Shown one piece after another: positions 15,232 to 19,363 of a DNA stretch of 25,992 nucleotides (positions are counted from its first letter, which is position 1; every line of letters begins with the position of its first letter). The stretch lies in the IMG/VR virus record IMGVR_UViG_3300027747_000315, positions 1 to 25,992 of that record; one strand, given 5' to 3'. Made by a program: the position numbers and the translations under genes. The stretch comes from a virus. The notes beneath the pieces are model-generated. The model did no database searches, was not told where the DNA came from, and worked only from the letters and a program-made list of their open reading frames with translations.

Positions 15232-15465
15232 TTATCCTTGTGTTAAAAAAACCACAAAAACCACAAAACCAATAAACATTAAACCAGTAAAAACTTCATT
15301 AGCTATTTTTTTAAATTTTTTGATTTTGCGTTGTTTATCTTCCCAAACAAGAAGTTTGTTGTATTCCTCACGATCACCCCAACCCTTATTGGCCATGCGT
15401 TGTAAGTTTTCTTGTTTAGCCTGGTAAGCCCAAAATGCTTCTGCTTGTTGTTCTTCACGGTTCAT
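15232..15465 (-). CDS. Small tail-anchored membrane protein
   Basis: This encodes 77 aa, and its start overlaps the previous gene's stop by 4 bases (ATGA). The first ~50 residues are strongly charged and helical (MNREEQQAEAFWAYQAKQEN onward), and the end is a single transmembrane helix (VFTGLMFIGFVVFVVFL). The soluble part would face the cytoplasm. It is the second gene of a leftward operon controlled by the promoter-leader cassette at 15762-15812. The function is unknown; early expression and a membrane location would be compatible with host takeover or superinfection roles, which is speculation. Confidence 0.6.
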   Translation of the reverse strand: MNREEQQAEAFWAYQAKQENLQRMANKGWGDREEYNKLLVWEDKQRKIKKFKKIANEVFTGLMFIGFVVFVVFLTQG

Positions 15466-15740
15466 TTTGCAGTTACCTTTAAAGTAATTACGGCAGTTGT
15501 TTTAGTATATTTGGCAATCAATTCTGCTGGTACATTAGCTTCAGCATAAACGGTCTTGTTGTCAACGGTGGCACGTTGTGAAAGGGTAACGCAAGCTTTA
15601 AACAAATTGCCTTCTGTATGGCCTTCTGTTTGCTTTAATTCATTTTTAATTGCATCGGCTTGTGCTTCTAAATCAGCAATTTGAGCCATCAACATACCTA
15701 ATTGGTCAACTTTGCTTAACTGAATATCCATTGCTTTCAT
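15462..15740 (-). CDS. Small early protein with coiled-coil N-terminus
   Basis: This encodes 92 aa. It has an AAGGA ribosome binding site and is the first gene after the cassette promoter at 15762-15812. Residues ~5-40 form a coiled-coil-like helix (LSKVDQLGMLMAQIADLEAQ). The remainder is a beta-rich tail with FKACVTLSQRATVDNKTVYAE and AVITLKVTAK. The overall plan (helix pair then a small beta domain) is shared with several small phage proteins, including Gam-like nuclease inhibitors, but I cannot support that assignment. It overlaps the next gene by 4 bases. Confidence 0.6.
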   Translation of the reverse strand: MKAMDIQLSKVDQLGMLMAQIADLEAQADAIKNELKQTEGHTEGNLFKACVTLSQRATVDNKTVYAEANVPAELIAKYTKTTAVITLKVTAK

Positions 15741-15761
15741 GATGTTTTCCTTTTATTTATC

Positions 15762-15812
15762 ACCGCAACGTTGCGGTATTGATAATTTACTAAAGAAAAC
15801 TTCACTACGCAA
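15762..15812 (-). promoter_or_regulatory. Leftward promoter-leader cassette L1
   Basis: On the - strand, TTGCGT (15807-15812) and TAAATT (15784-15789) form -35 and -10 boxes with a 17-nt spacer. The spacer is filled by an 18-bp imperfect inverted repeat (15789-15806; ACTAAAGAAAACTTCACT on the + strand). Six bases after the -10 box comes the 16-nt palindrome ACCGCAACGTTGCGGT (15762-15777), which in RNA is a 6-bp stem with an ACGU loop. Then GATAAATAAAAGGA leads to the ATG of the 92-aa gene. The design is shared with cassettes L2 and L3. Confidence 0.65.
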
Positions 15813-15943
15813 GAACTATTTACTAGGTGTTTACCCTAAAAACAACAAAAAGGTGGGGCTACTCGCTACGTCTATTAGATATGCCGCTGGTAAAAAAGGC
15901 CGACATTCACCATCCAGGAATAGCATCCGCTTTCGCCCCGTTG

Positions 15944-16732
15944 TTACTTGTGATTGTTTTTTAACTGCCAAAACTCTAATAGCTTGGTAAACATAAGCCA
16001 GTAGCGGTCCAAATCATTCGCTTCATGCTCCACAACCTTAACGCCGGTGAACTGGGTAATGCCATTGACCATCTTGTAGCCAACAAATACGTTGGCACAA
16101 CGGGCTTTGGGCATATGAAAACCTTCGCGGTAAGCGGCTAATTGCATCCCATGCTCTGGATAAATTTCAGCTTTAGAAATATCTTCAGTTTCCTTGGTTT
16201 TAATGTCAATACATACGCCATCAAAATCATGCCTTGATTTAACTATTAAATCGGCCTTACCGCCGTACCCAAGGGGATGGGCAAAGGATAGTTCCGGCAA
16301 TAGCAAAAGTTCCCCAAAATGCGTTTTAATGGCTTCTTCAACGGGGCGGCATATTTGCATATGTTCCGGTATTAATGCGCCTTCAAAAAACGATTGAACA
16401 ATGGCATGAATGGTGGTGCCACGGTCAGCGGCCACCCGGCCAGTTTGCTTGGAATCCATCATTACCCGTTCAAGCCAAGATTGTTCCGGTTCCCCAGTTT
16501 CCCTAGGTAGGGTTAATGCACTTAATAGGACGTTTTGTTGTTTCCAAATATCAAGGCCTGGACGTGCCGCAACCGCAATGATTCCTGAAACGCTAGGGCA
16601 AAGGTCAAGTGATCTTGCATCCCGTAACGTTGCTTGTCGTTGCTGGCCGTTTTTTCCAATAACTGTATATGCTGGGTTTCCTTGACGATCATACCAATGC
16701 CCACTTTCCGATTGACGTTCTTTAATTATCAT
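15944..16732 (-). CDS. RecB/Cas4-like PD-(D/E)XK exonuclease
   Basis: With ATG 16732 the product is 262 aa (MIIKERQSESGHWYDRQGNP); a GTG six codons earlier would give 268 aa, but the ATG has a better GGAAG upstream and overlaps the previous gene's end only slightly. The nuclease core is visible: GYGGKADLIV (metal-binding Asp), DGVCIDIKTKE (D-x-K motif) and MQLAAYREG (Q-x3-Y motif of the RecB family). Such phage enzymes resect DNA ends for recombination. It is the last gene of a leftward operon that also encodes an SSB-like protein, consistent with an end-processing and annealing system. Confidence 0.75.
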   Translation of the reverse strand: MIIKERQSESGHWYDRQGNPAYTVIGKNGQQRQATLRDARSLDLCPSVSGIIAVAARPGLDIWKQQNVLLSALTLPRETGEPEQSWLERVMMDSKQTGRVAADRGTTIHAIVQSFFEGALIPEHMQICRPVEEAIKTHFGELLLLPELSFAHPLGYGGKADLIVKSRHDFDGVCIDIKTKETEDISKAEIYPEHGMQLAAYREGFHMPKARCANVFVGYKMVNGITQFTGVKVVEHEANDLDRYWLMFTKLLEFWQLKNNHK

Positions 16733-16913
16733 TTTTTGGTTTTCTTCCACGTTTTGGCGCTTCTTCTTGAACTGGTGTAACTACAACAACTTTGCTGGAA
16801 TATTCACCGCACCAATCGTTTTGACTTTTGTTGGCCGTTTGTGGAAAACGTTTACATACGCCATACGTATCATTGGTTTGACCGGCATACCATTTACAGT
16901 CAATACATTTCAT
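16722..16913 (-). CDS. Small Cys-rich (zinc-ribbon-like) protein with basic tail
   Basis: This encodes 63 aa. The N-terminal half has four Cys in a metal-site arrangement: MKCIDCKWY, GVCKRFP and DWCGEY. The C-terminal tail KRGRKPKNDN resembles an AT-hook-type minor-groove binding patch. Small phage proteins with this CxxC-C-WCGE arrangement are common in early regions; their role is not established to me. It sits in the recombination operon between an unknown 67-aa gene and the RecB-like nuclease, and its end overlaps the nuclease start. Confidence 0.65.
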   Translation of the reverse strand: MKCIDCKWYAGQTNDTYGVCKRFPQTANKSQNDWCGEYSSKVVVVTPVQEEAPKRGRKPKNDN

Positions 16914-17117
16914 TTAATCACCTAATGTTTTTAAAATTAAACTTCTATCTTCAGGGTCCTTTACCATACAAGCCGCTTCAGTAATTAAAGCTTTGGTAAA
17001 TTTAGACAATGCTTCATAACTGAAACCAATGATTTCAGTTTCTTCATCGTGGCCTATATCTTGAACTGTTTTCAAAGTGTAGTAATCACAAACCATAAAC
17101 TTAATCATTGGCTTCAT
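16914..17117 (-). CDS. 67-aa early operon protein, unknown
   Basis: This encodes 67 aa and its stop is immediately adjacent to the next start. The protein is acidic and helical with a Tyr/Phe-rich N-terminus (MKPMIKFMVCDYYTLKTVQD) and a C-terminal helix AALITEAAC-like (TKALITEAACMVKDPEDRSL). There is no motif I can name. It is co-oriented and tightly packed between the SSB-like gene and the Cys-rich gene, so it is probably co-expressed with the recombination functions. Confidence 0.55.
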   Translation of the reverse strand: MKPMIKFMVCDYYTLKTVQDIGHDEETEIIGFSYEALSKFTKALITEAACMVKDPEDRSLILKTLGD

Positions 17118-17125
17118 ATTGCCCC

Positions 17126-17764
17126 CTAGAATGGAATATCGTCATCAATCAATTCTGACGGTGCAGAACTAACTGGTGGCGAATTAGGTTCAAACGTATT
17201 ACGGTATTCGGCAGATTTTTTGATTACGCCTTGCATACCTTCTGACAACTTACTAAATTTATCTTGATCAAATGGATCAAGGGTAAAAATCATGGGTTCG
17301 TTAACGCCAACGGGTTCGCCTAATTTCTTTAATGCGGCTGGTATTTGGCTAATGCCAGCAATGTTGGCGTACTCTTTACCGTCATATGTTGAATGGGTGA
17401 TAGATACCATGCAACACTTGCCCAGCAAAACTTCTAGGTTAAATCCATCTAATTCTTCTTGGGTAAATGCTTTACCACGCCAGGCTTCTAAATCTTTACG
17501 CAATGTGGCTTTTTCGTCCAACGATAACGTATAGCGTTTAGATACAATTAGCGGCTTACCTTCTGCGGTTTGCAATGGCTGGCCATCGTTATCTTCACCA
17601 TGTAATTCAAACATAGTGATGATTTTGCGTTGCATCTTTTTCTTGCCCATCCATTCGGTGGTTTGGGTGCCTATATCAATAATGCGATAAAGCTTGGCAA
17701 GAAAACTGCCGGCTGGTGGTAGTTTGAAGTCACTACCGGAACTGGTTTGTTTTGCAATTATCAT
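17126..17764 (-). CDS. Phage ssDNA-binding-type protein with SSB C-terminal tip
   Basis: With ATG 17764 this is 212 aa; an earlier ATG at 17797 would overlap the upstream gene by 29 bases, whereas 17764 lies four bases after that gene's stop. The N-terminal body is beta-rich (FKLPPAGSFLAKLYRIIDIGTQ, KKMQRKIITMFELHG, PLIVSKRYTLSLDEKATLRK), compatible with an OB-type fold. A Ser/Pro-rich linker (NSPPVSSAPS) then leads to the acidic end IDDDIPF. That end equals the tip of E. coli SSB, which recruits RecO, RecQ, PriA, exonuclease I and other partners. It probably coats ssDNA and recruits host repair proteins, working with the RecB-like nuclease downstream. Confidence 0.7.
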   Translation of the reverse strand: MIIAKQTSSGSDFKLPPAGSFLAKLYRIIDIGTQTTEWMGKKKMQRKIITMFELHGEDNDGQPLQTAEGKPLIVSKRYTLSLDEKATLRKDLEAWRGKAFTQEELDGFNLEVLLGKCCMVSITHSTYDGKEYANIAGISQIPAALKKLGEPVGVNEPMIFTLDPFDQDKFSKLSEGMQGVIKKSAEYRNTFEPNSPPVSSAPSELIDDDIPF

Positions 17765-17768
17765 TTTT

Positions 17769-17969
17769 TCATTTTCCAAAAATTGTTCCAAAATCATTAA
17801 ACACTTCTGTTAATACAGGGTTTTTTCTATGGCGATTAGGTTTACCGCAAGCTTGCCGTATGCAATCAACTTGTGCCTGGGTAAGCAATTCGCCACCATA
17901 TTCCATGCAATCTAAAGCTTCTTCTAAAAATTCTTCATGTTCTAACATCAACTGGTTTAATTCATCCAT
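17769..17969 (-). CDS. Small acidic early protein
   Basis: This encodes 66 aa with ATG at 17969 and AGGAG well placed upstream; the frame is open further upstream, but that part runs through the promoter region and the divergent regulator. The N-terminus is strongly acidic and helical (MDELNQLMLEHEEFLEEALD). Two Cys in a helix (VDCIRQACGKPNRHRK) and a short C-terminal segment follow. It is the first gene of the leftward recombination operon, downstream of cassette L2. No family is recognised; acidic small first-gene products are often host-directed inhibitors, but that is only a possibility. Confidence 0.6.
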   Translation of the reverse strand: MDELNQLMLEHEEFLEEALDCMEYGGELLTQAQVDCIRQACGKPNRHRKNPVLTEVFNDFGTIFGK

Positions 17970-17990
17970 GTTTGCTACTCCTTTTTTATC

Positions 17991-18042
17991 ACGGCACCAT
18001 TGCCGTACTGACAAATGTAAAGTAAAATTTAGTTGTTGTAAA
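17991..18042 (-). promoter_or_regulatory. Leftward promoter-leader cassette L2
   Basis: On the - strand, TTTACA (18037-18042) and TACATT (18014-18019) are spaced by 17 nt. The spacer and -10 overlap the first of two 18-bp repeats (18016-18033). Seven bases after the -10 box lies the 16-nt stem-loop ACGGCAATGGTGCCGT (18006 down to 17991), directly followed by GATAAAAAAGGAG and the ATG at 17969. The hairpin and purine-rich leader match cassettes L1 and L3 in length and placement. Confidence 0.65.
18000..18028 (+). promoter_or_regulatory. Possible rightward promoter for the Cro/YdaS-like gene
   Basis: TTGCCG (18000-18005) and TAAAAT (18023-18028) are 17 nt apart. Both overlap elements of the divergent leftward promoter and the first 18-bp repeat, so the two directions would compete. 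The -35 match is weak. Transcription would start near 18035 and reach an AAGGA before the ATG at 18071. Confidence 0.4.
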
Positions 18043-18054
18043 GTAATATTTAGT
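18016..18054. repeat. Tandem 18-bp operator-like repeats, 21-bp period
   Basis: TGTAAAGTAAAATTTAGT (18016-18033) and TGTAAAGTAATATTTAGT (18037-18054) differ at one base and are 21 bp apart, two helical turns. Each is an imperfect inverted repeat (TAAA/TTTA core) related to the elements in the spacers of cassettes L1 and L3. The location between divergent genes and next to a Cro/YdaS-like gene fits binding sites for a phage regulator. Confidence 0.65.
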
Positions 18055-18070
18055 AAAAAAGGAAAAATAA

Positions 18071-18301
18071 ATGACTGATGCACAAATGATTGACCTATTG
18101 GGCAAGCCAGCAAAGGTAGCAAAGCTATGTGGCGTAACGGTCCAAGCGGTGTGTCAATGGCGCAACAACAACGCAATACCAGCCGCACCATTGATGCTAA
18201 TAGCGGCAACAATTGAACGTGAAAGCCACGGTTTAGTAAGCAGAAAAGACCTTTTTCCTGATACCTGGGCTTTAATTTGGCCGGAGTTAAGCACGGTTTA
18301 G
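18071..18301 (+). CDS. Cro/YdaS-like helix-turn-helix regulator
   Basis: This encodes 76 aa with AAGGA before the ATG. Residues ~9-45 form a compact helix-turn-helix: LLGKPAKVAKLCGVTVQAVC, with recognition helix VTVQAVCQWRNNNAIP. The following APLMLIAATIERESHGLVSRKDLFPDTW is typical of the YdaS/Cro group ('xPxxxxxxIExxTxGxVxRxDLxPxxW'). These small dimeric repressors sit at the divergent early switch of many phages. Here it diverges from the recombination operon across tandem operator-like repeats, so autoregulation and repression of the leftward promoter are likely. No CI-type partner is visible in the window. Confidence 0.8.
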   Translation: MTDAQMIDLLGKPAKVAKLCGVTVQAVCQWRNNNAIPAAPLMLIAATIERESHGLVSRKDLFPDTWALIWPELSTV

Positions 18302-18329
18302 TTTTATGATATAGTTCTAAACATTGAGG

Positions 18330-18442
18330 ACTGGAATACTCGATGAATAGGGTTTTGTAGGTATCTTTGTGGGTTTAGGAAATAAGATAAGAGGTATTTC
18401 CCAAGCCATTCCAGCATAAAGCTACCTACAAAGCCCTTTTTT
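18330..18442 (+). ncRNA. Candidate structured RNA with terminator, downstream of the regulator
   Basis: A 15-bp stem pairs 18349-18363 (AGGGTTTTGTAGGTA) with 18423-18437 (TACCTACAAAGCCCT), one G-U pair, and is followed by TTTTTT at 18437-18442, so the fold ends as an intrinsic terminator. It encloses a second hairpin pairing 18372-18384 with 18395-18407 (13 positions, one G-U, one mismatch). In addition CTGGAAT (18331-18337), upstream of the stem, is complementary to ATTCCAG (18408-18414), inside it, giving a possible pseudoknot or a switch. No coding frame of note is present. It could be a small RNA or a regulated terminator behind the Cro-like gene. The promoter is unclear; TATAGT at 18310-18315 lacks a good -35. 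Confidence 0.55.
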
Positions 18443-18455
18443 ATTGGCTTTTCAG

Positions 18456-18646
18456 TTCCCATCGTTCTGATTGGGGATTCACCACCACCAGCGGTCAGGA
18501 TAGAAGCGTTACTGGGGGATCAAGGAATGTAATAACGCATATGCCGGTGGCGAAGTTAGTGCCGGTTTCCTGAACGACTGACGGGTTAAGTGGCTCCGAA
18601 AAGCAAAACTTATTAAGGCAACCTAGGTGGGCTAGGTTCGTCCACC
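18456..18646 (+). other. Non-coding, GC-richer structured stretch ending in a pseudoknot
   Basis: This stretch has no credible gene. Hairpins seen: 18456-18463 with 18469-18477; CCACCAGC (18485-18492) with GCCGGTGG (18543-18550) enclosing GCGTTA/TAACGC (18506-18511/18533-18538); TCAGGA (18495-18500) could alternatively pair with TCCTGA (18568-18573). At the end AACCTAG (18620-18626) pairs with CTAGGTT (18632-18638), and its loop GTGG (18627-18630) pairs with CCAC (18642-18645), an H-type pseudoknot. It could be a structured RNA, a leader element or a replication origin. The rest, 18647-18711, is AT-rich with nothing recognisable. Confidence 0.4.
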
Positions 18647-18711
18647 AAAAAGCAATTCAACATAAATACAACAGTTATTAGATATTAGGGTATATCACTA
18701 GAAGATAATTG

Positions 18712-18762
18712 TTGACAACTAAAGATTACTTTAGTAATATGTATATACGGTCATATGATCGT
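18712..18762 (+). promoter_or_regulatory. Rightward promoter-leader cassette L3
   Basis: TTGACA (18712-18717) and TAATAT (18735-18740) are a near-consensus sigma-70 pair with a 17-nt spacer. A perfect 7-bp inverted repeat, ACTAAAGATTACTTTAGT (18718-18735), occupies the spacer. Six bases after the -10 box is the 16-nt stem-loop ACGGTCATATGATCGT (18747-18762; one G-U pair), followed by GGTGAAAAAAGGA and the ATG at 18783. This is the strongest of the three cassettes and should drive the rightward replication operon. Confidence 0.8.
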
Positions 18763-18782
18763 GGTGAAAAAAGGAAAACAAA

Positions 18783-18989
18783 ATGTACGAAAAAGCCCTT
18801 AAAGATTTTTATAAATTAAACACAGTCAATGACGATGACCTAGACGGCACCATTGACCATCTTGTATTTCGTGCCCAGCATGAAATTGATTTAGAAGATG
18901 AAGGCGAAAACGAATACGCAAGTTTTGTATTGCCTAAAGGCGAATACGCCAAGCTTAAAAAGTTTGTAGCTAAATGGACGGGCAAATAA
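18783..18989 (+). CDS. Small acidic early protein
   Basis: This encodes 68 aa with AAGGA before the ATG and is the first gene downstream of cassette L3. It is acidic in the middle (NDDDLDGTIDHLVFRAQHEIDLEDEGENE) with a basic C-terminal helix (GEYAKLKKFVAKWTGK), and its stop shares a base with the next start. The function is not recognised. Its place as the leader gene of the replication operon, like the small acidic first gene of the leftward operon, suggests an early regulatory or host-directed role; that is inference. Confidence 0.6.
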   Translation: MYEKALKDFYKLNTVNDDDLDGTIDHLVFRAQHEIDLEDEGENEYASFVLPKGEYAKLKKFVAKWTGK

Positions 18990-19363
18990 TGTTTGAACAG
19001 TTTTGGAAACATTACCCCAGGAAGGTAGCTAAACGTGCCGCCCTGGGGGCGTTTAACCGTTTGACTGCTGATGAACAAGCCCAGGCCGTAGAAGCCATAG
19101 AACAACACGTAGCCTATTGGAAACTAAAGGGTACTGAAATGGATTTCATATGCCATGCAACCACGTGGCTTAACCAGGGCCGGTGGGAAGATGAATTGGA
19201 TATGACGCCTAAAGAAGTAAAGCGGCCTTCATTACCTTGGTATAGTAATGATGAACTGACTTTGGCCAAGGGCCGGGAACTAGGATTAAATGCTTACGCC
19301 GGGGAATCTATGGGACAGTACCGCCAACGAATTGCCCAACAAATCGGAAAGATGGCGGTATGA
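18989..19363 (+). CDS. Replication protein (O/DnaT-like helicase-loader type)
   Basis: This encodes 124 aa with ATG 18989 sharing a base with the upstream stop (TAATG). The start MFEQFWKHYPRKVAKRAALGAFNRL is the well-known 'FWxxYPRKxxKxxAxxAFxxL' segment of phage replication proteins. It is followed by AIEQHVAYWKLKGTEMDFICHATTWLNQGRWEDEL, also family-typical. These domains occur in lambda O-type and DnaT/DnaD-type initiators that bring a helicase to the origin. Here only this domain is present and no separate origin-binding domain is fused to it. The nearby structured non-coding stretch would be a plausible origin, though unproven. Confidence 0.65.
   Translation: MFEQFWKHYPRKVAKRAALGAFNRLTADEQAQAVEAIEQHVAYWKLKGTEMDFICHATTWLNQGRWEDELDMTPKEVKRPSLPWYSNDELTLAKGRELGLNAYAGESMGQYRQRIAQQIGKMAV

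Follow-up and report, generated by a model that had tools for sequence, protein, structure and literature searches.

How do three promoters of one phage, each reading into a different gene, come to share the same promoter repeat and the same leader hairpin, and what could such a unit be for? The question is raised by IMGVR_UViG_3300027747_000315, an IMG/VR virus record which is a linear fragment of 25,992 bases (hereafter the window, meaning this whole stretch), in which three promoter–leader cassettes, L1, L2 and L3, had been noticed (Table 1). By direct reading we find all three located and ordered as in this original prediction: a −35 box, a 17-bp spacer with an operator, a −10 box, 6–7 nt, a 16-nt stem–loop and an A-rich stretch with the Shine–Dalgarno (SD) sequence AAGGA(G) followed by ATG. 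The distance from the ACTAAA-type edge of the repeat to the stem–loop is indeed 29, 29 and 27 nt. The 18-bp inverted repeat is present at each cassette but is a perfect palindrome only at L3, as the L1 and L2 sites have two mismatches to ACTAAAN6TTTAGT. We suggest that L1–L3 are probably early promoters under a Cro-type autorepressor and form a regulon with 5′-stabilised messages in a virulent or CI-less podophage with a P22-like virion. The whole analysis is computational: architecture, conservation, likeness of the operators to P22 and RNA covariation were computed.

A scan of the window for an operator (at most two mismatches), hairpin, SD sequence and ATG returned three matches, namely L1–L3, and none in 60 dinucleotide shuffles. 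Together with 12 relatives, 11 of which are whole records of 34.1–35.9 kb, the window forms a set of 13 records. In this set a scan for hairpin, SD sequence and ATG that was blind to the operator yielded 44 distinct leaders, and in 39 of them an operator lies 11–14 nt upstream; the reversed-sequence control gave one leader in total. The pattern TAAAGN4CTTTA occurs in two to five copies per relative and, written backwards, in none. The 18-bp operator pattern alone, at three mismatches, is found at chance level (38 sites vs 30 expected). Thus the signal of the cassette lies in the combination of its parts and in their conservation.

Related phages have kept the cassette with its parts in the same fixed order. 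Contigs of such phages (∼100) were collected by searches with the Cro and single-strand-binding proteins, and the related IMG/VR phages contain 143 distinct cassettes, to be counted as distinct sequences and not as independent events. The spacer measures 17 bp in 138 of the 143 and the gap between −10 box and hairpin is 6 or 7 nt in all of them, with 4–10 nt from hairpin to SD sequence and 5–9 nt from there to the ATG. The L2 region is represented by ∼50 distinct conserved sequences, L1 by 18 and L3 by 7. The genes behind the cassettes fall into 28 blastp clusters, some of them tiny or spurious, which leaves roughly 25 unrelated small genes, and at the L3 position the promoter is kept and the gene swapped between relatives. 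Since an identical hairpin, TACGGCAACGGTGCCGTG, precedes many unrelated proteins, homology of the coding regions cannot explain the likeness of the cassettes, as had been claimed from L1–L3 alone. The architecture extends to phages with a Cro only 35–53% identical; in such distant lineages promoter, operator, hairpin and SD sequence stay in place and the hairpin sequences differ. In one relative (L133) a cassette stands before a 378-amino-acid open reading frame starting MNYLSVCSGIEAATVAWHDLGWKPLGFSEIEKFPSELLAH, which by eye resembles a DNA cytosine methyltransferase.

For 22 distinct hairpins of equal length with a seven-pair stem we could compare the two arms directly. Of the stem cells 98.7% are paired and 18 are altered on both sides, against 4.2 on average in the shuffles. 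The covariation score of the stem is 0.448, a value reached by none of 500 shuffles (0.179 for the shuffles); when the partner is slid by 1–3 columns the pairing falls to 24–56%. Every variant of the six outer pairs is still a standard pair, G.U and U.G included, and the only two unpaired stem cells are both A.C at the loop-closing pair. As one-sided changes favour G.U over A.C, which is unlike a DNA palindrome, the hairpin covaries as RNA. Structure and position are retained while the sequence changes: the stem reads TTAGGC..GCCTAA in the distant lineages L154–L157, ACTAGC..GCTAGT in Podoviridae sp. ctn9Y15 (MW202674) and GTAGCA..TGCTAC in Myoviridae sp. cta1H496 (MW202520); in these two metagenomic phages the hairpin is still 6 nt from the −10 box. 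In the predicted folds of the leaders the SD sequence is mostly single-stranded. The z-scores of single-sequence folding are only about −1.2 to −1.6, so that the hairpin would have escaped folding energy alone and is revealed by covariation. Strong hairpins of the GGCCCCTACGGGGGCC or GGGGCGAAAGCCCC type were also seen right before SD sequences within operons that have no cassette promoter at this place, often ahead of the L3 or replication gene (G008:C1 near 32301; L023 and L029; L154, L155 and L158).

The repeat in the spacer is a P22-type Cro operator. The L3 operator ACTAAAGATTACTTTAGT and P22 OR2 ACTAAAGATTCCTTTAGT are identical at 17 of 18 positions, and in P22 itself ANTNAAG-N4-CTTNANT is fitted without mismatch by the three annotated sites of OR and the first of OL, as it is by L1 and L3. 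P22 PR carries an OR site between −35 and −10, as L3 does. The original prediction of a phage-specific regulon is therefore strongly supported as far as a shared promoter–leader regulon is concerned, but the operator is not private to this phage, and the promoters resemble those of sigma70 more than phage-specific ones. The 76-amino-acid protein encoded beside both L2 operators scores 31.2 bits against PF14549 P22_Cro (cut-off 30.2) and 33.7 against PF15943 YdaS (cut-off 30), and it matches solved Cro proteins with an E value of ∼5e-4; in prophage CP-933P, YdaS is regarded as equivalent to Cro (PMC9986795). Judged from its family and gene position, this protein is likely the regulator of the cassette operators. 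In a lineage with a Cro 40–53% identical the operators change to a TTAAG-type half-site and remain inside the promoter. Profiles for S24 peptidase, HTH_3 and integrase (PF00717, PF01381, PF00589) found nothing in the 13 records and were positive in control genomes. Given the Cro-like gene beside L2, the P22 form of the operators and the absence of these three families, we read the system as a regulon under a Cro-type autorepressor in which no CI was recognised. Perfect TAAAGAAAACTTTA sites without a cassette recur at G003:C1:7412, G005:C1:28833, G007:C1:11625 and G008:C1:7419, at a conserved place within an apparent coding region reading ..MAKENFRKMYPD.., and may reflect a coding constraint or stoperator-like sites.

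On infection the sigma70 RNA polymerase of the host would start each early operon, and the accumulating Cro-like protein would then bind the P22-type operators between −35 and −10 and shut off L1, L2 and L3, probably together with its own divergent promoter. Sigma70 transcription starts 6–7 nt after the −10 box, just the distance at which the hairpin sits, and each message is therefore expected to have its first base at, or within ∼1 base of, the 16-nt stem–loop; behind it a short A/U-rich stretch, left unpaired, would hold the SD sequence and start codon. Most likely the 5′-terminal stem would keep RppH and RNase E off the message while the ribosome site stays accessible, and from a message protected in this way a brief burst of transcription could still yield much early protein. 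RppH and RNase E require single-stranded 5′ ends (PMC3997798), hence the known stabilising effect of structure at the 5′ end. In the betaproteobacterium C. necator the T7 gene 10 stem–loop upstream of the SD sequence raised expression 1.5–3-fold as well as mRNA abundance, and A/U-rich spacers helped too (PMC6146998); the mRNA of T4 gene 32, too, is stabilised by a 5′ hairpin (cited in PMC8948821). We infer a transcript start at the hairpin, binding by Cro and stabilisation of the mRNA by the stem.

Some points weigh against this proposal. Both L2 operators have two mismatches to ANTNAAG-N4-CTTNANT. There may be a C2/CI-like repressor in families outside those tested, or in genome parts absent from the records; IMG/VR records are possibly incomplete. 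The argument from RppH and RNase E is carried over by analogy from E. coli to the host of this phage. In addition, because a few hairpin–SD leaders lie inside operons without the cassette promoter, protection of the 5′ end cannot be the sole role of such hairpins. The RNA-level control of the original prediction stands only insofar as a conserved RNA stem–loop lies at the predicted 5′ end; this stem–loop may simply stabilise the message constitutively and not regulate it.

Could the hairpin instead be the recognition site of a phage RNA-binding protein, either as a shared translational operator like that of T4 gp43 or to load an antitermination factor, as nut and put do? It is found in every early cassette, as expected for a coordinated element, the L2 leaders retain a GGCAAT core even in distant lineages, and a specific recognition is conceivable because sequence is conserved beyond the needs of pairing, with a tetraloop that mostly reads A-Y-G-K and a nearly invariant TA..GTG at the base of the stem. 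Nevertheless, loop and stem sequences vary among L1, L2 and L3 and are entirely different in ctn9Y15 and cta1H496, and no candidate RNA-binding protein was identified. Put sites of HK022 are much larger than the cassette hairpin. Lambda-type nut antitermination sites were rejected, as boxA-like matches are absent from all 143 leaders, which excludes classical nut sites. On balance we consider such a recognition site unlikely. A two-layered early regulon, in which Cro represses transcription via the operator in the spacer, and the 5′ hairpins are read by a dedicated phage factor (a protein, or the RF02932 RNA beside L3) that jointly switches translation, stability or termination of the early messages, appears to us quite doubtful.

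The hairpin sequence might also act as DNA, namely as another palindromic operator, covering +1 to +16, or as part of the divergent Cro promoter. Palindromes just past +1 are common repressor sites; on the strand opposite to L2 the sequence TTGCCG-N17-TAAAAT leads into Cro, with its −35 box in the L2 palindrome, and TTGCC is retained in most L2 hairpins. On the contrary, no gene diverges from L1 or L3 at the corresponding place, the hairpin sequence is swapped while the pairing persists, and one-sided departures in the six outer pairs are all G.U or U.G and never A.C, which is RNA-like and unlike DNA half-sites. A role as DNA is thus improbable. Least credible of all is that the cassettes are alike merely because one promoter segment was recently duplicated or recombined, with no selection on its parts. 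Recombination at the cassettes is likely, as a single genome contains cassettes of great likeness and relatives differ in the gene that follows L3; nevertheless, stems that change in a compensatory way, spacings that stay constant and a cassette that persists at 35–53% Cro identity call for selection on the parts, and this reading is very remote.

As a Cro-type regulon the system is closest to the immunity region of P22 (C2/Cro, OR/OL, PR), with which it shares 18-bp ANTNAAG-N4-CTTNANT operators within early promoters and a P22_Cro-family protein; in addition the nearest named relatives of the window phage have P22-like virion genes. In contrast to P22, a C2-type repressor, integrase or HTH_3 protein was not detected in the 13 records, the OR/OL triplets are replaced by single or paired operators at each of three or four scattered operons, and there is a 5′-terminal hairpin instead of a downstream nut site. 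The system would thus work like a Cro arm but is not filed as a lambdoid switch, since neither a CI/C2-type repressor nor an integrase was found in these records. The cassettes resemble the stabilising leaders of T7 gene 10, ompA/papA and T4 gene 32 in the short stem–loop at their predicted 5′ end, the unpaired A/U-rich spacer and the close SD sequence and start codon. Unlike in these leaders, the hairpin here is a fixed part of a repressible cassette and is reused before many unrelated genes, and a stabilising effect is suggested by analogy. In Cluster K mycobacteriophages many different genes likewise have a conserved element with an inverted repeat, the SAS/ESAS, ahead of their start codons; the SAS, an asymmetric sequence of 13 bp (GGGATAGGAGCCC), lies across the SD sequence, is accompanied by 17-bp repeats and has no known promoter (PMC3203893). 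Here, on the contrary, sigma70 boxes and a Cro operator belong to the unit, and we rejected this assignment as the leaders read ATAAATAAAGGA or similar and the 13-bp sequence over the SD sequence is absent. A hairpin promoter for the N4 virion RNA polymerase was rejected because the hairpin lies downstream of canonical −35/−10 boxes with 17-bp spacing. In ctn9Y15 and cta1H496 a Cro-like gene likewise diverges from a promoter with operator, +1 hairpin and SD sequence, but hairpin and operator sequences are different and the leftward operon is annotated erf and ssb; the cassette is not annotated in these records.

Table 1. Features of the L1–L3 region (window coordinates); boxes and Shine–Dalgarno (SD) sequences are from direct reading
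Feature	Position	Strand	Sequence or remark
L1 first gene	15462–15740	−	92 amino acids; weak match to C-terminus of a RecE-like PHROG
L1 SD	15748–15752	−	AAGGA
L1 leader hairpin	15762–15777	−	ACCGCAACGTTGCGGT; 16 nt, predicted +1
L1 −10 box	15784–15789	−	TAAATT
L1 operator	15789–15806	−	AGTGAAGTTTTCTTTAGT; in spacer, no mismatch to P22-type ANTNAAGN4CTTNANT
L1 −35 box	15807–15812	−	TTGCGT; 17-bp spacer
L1 upstream imperfect inverted repeat	15823–15838	−	TAGGG-N-CCTAG type; in 14 of 18 L1a cassettes, centred 27–28 nt upstream of operator core
Exonuclease gene	15944–16750		L2 operon
ssDNA-binding-like gene	17126–17797		L2 operon
L2 first gene	17769–17969	−	66 amino acids; operon head
L2 SD	17978–17983	−	AAGGAG
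L2 leader hairpin	17991–18006	−	ACGGCAATGGTGCCGT; 16 nt, predicted +1
Candidate Cro promoter	18000–18028	+	−35 TTGCCG inside hairpin DNA, 17 bp, −10 TAAAAT inside operator; sequence inference
L2 −10 box	18014–18019	−	TACATT
L2 operator	18016–18033	−	ACTAAATTTTACTTTACA; in spacer
L2 −35 box	18037–18042	−	TTTACA; 17-bp spacer
L2 second operator	18037–18054	−	ACTAAATATTACTTTACA; 21 bp upstream of the first
Cro-like repressor gene	18071–18301	+	76 amino acids; divergent from L2; Pfam P22_Cro and YdaS
Long imperfect hairpin, then T-run	18346–18446	+	26-nt arms, 85% complementary
RF02932 RNA	18464–18586	+	87.3 bits, E 3.9e-15
L3 upstream imperfect inverted repeat	18685–18701	+	TTAGGGTATATCACTAG
L3 −35 box	18712–18717	+	TTGACA; 17-bp spacer
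L3 operator	18718–18735	+	ACTAAAGATTACTTTAGT; one base from P22 OR2
L3 −10 box	18735–18740	+	TAATAT
L3 leader hairpin	18747–18762	+	ACGGTCATATGATCGT; 16 nt, predicted +1
L3 SD	18771–18775	+	AAGGA
L3 first gene	18783–18989	+	68 amino acids; other genes in its place in relatives
Replication-initiation-like gene	18974–19363		next after L3 first gene

Three features of the region had been passed over before: a second inverted repeat upstream of L1 and L3, the second L2 operator and a small RNA upstream of L3. The imperfect TAGGG-N-CCTA repeat of L1 and L3 is centred 26–28 nt upstream of the operator core, is also found in many relatives and is possibly an activator site. The small RNA belongs to the Rfam family Betaproteobacteria-1 (RF02932), lies between the Cro gene and L3 and is also present in 6 of the 12 relatives, with two copies in one of them (G002). 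By eye, its segments UUC-A-CCACC and GGUGG-C-GAA could form a pseudoknot, and it has short SD-like complementarities to the leaders. The long hairpin with T-run just downstream of Cro is probably a strong terminator or a small RNA.

A DNA-level search with the region gave no match among GenBank phages, and the protein of the L2 first gene has no relative among them. When 84,980 species genomes were searched with Cro the sole match was a 43%-identical fragment in a metagenome-assembled genome of Chloroflexi; this search therefore revealed neither a prophage copy nor a host. The lone hint to the host is the name of the small RNA family.

We found no description of the cassette combination in the open-access literature, which misses most subscription papers. 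It looks as if known parts, control by a P22-type Cro and a leader with a 5′-terminal hairpin, are joined here in an undescribed combination as a reusable early-gene cassette of freshwater podophages. The signature of a P22-type operator in a 17-bp spacer, a hairpin at +1 and AAGGA locates early operons in uncultivated freshwater phages, and it flags the hypervariable small genes behind the cassettes as early and possibly engaged in host takeover or counter-defence. In addition, our results suggest that a phage regulon open to repression makes natural use of 5′ stem–loops, and that its Cro-type repressor apparently acts without CI.

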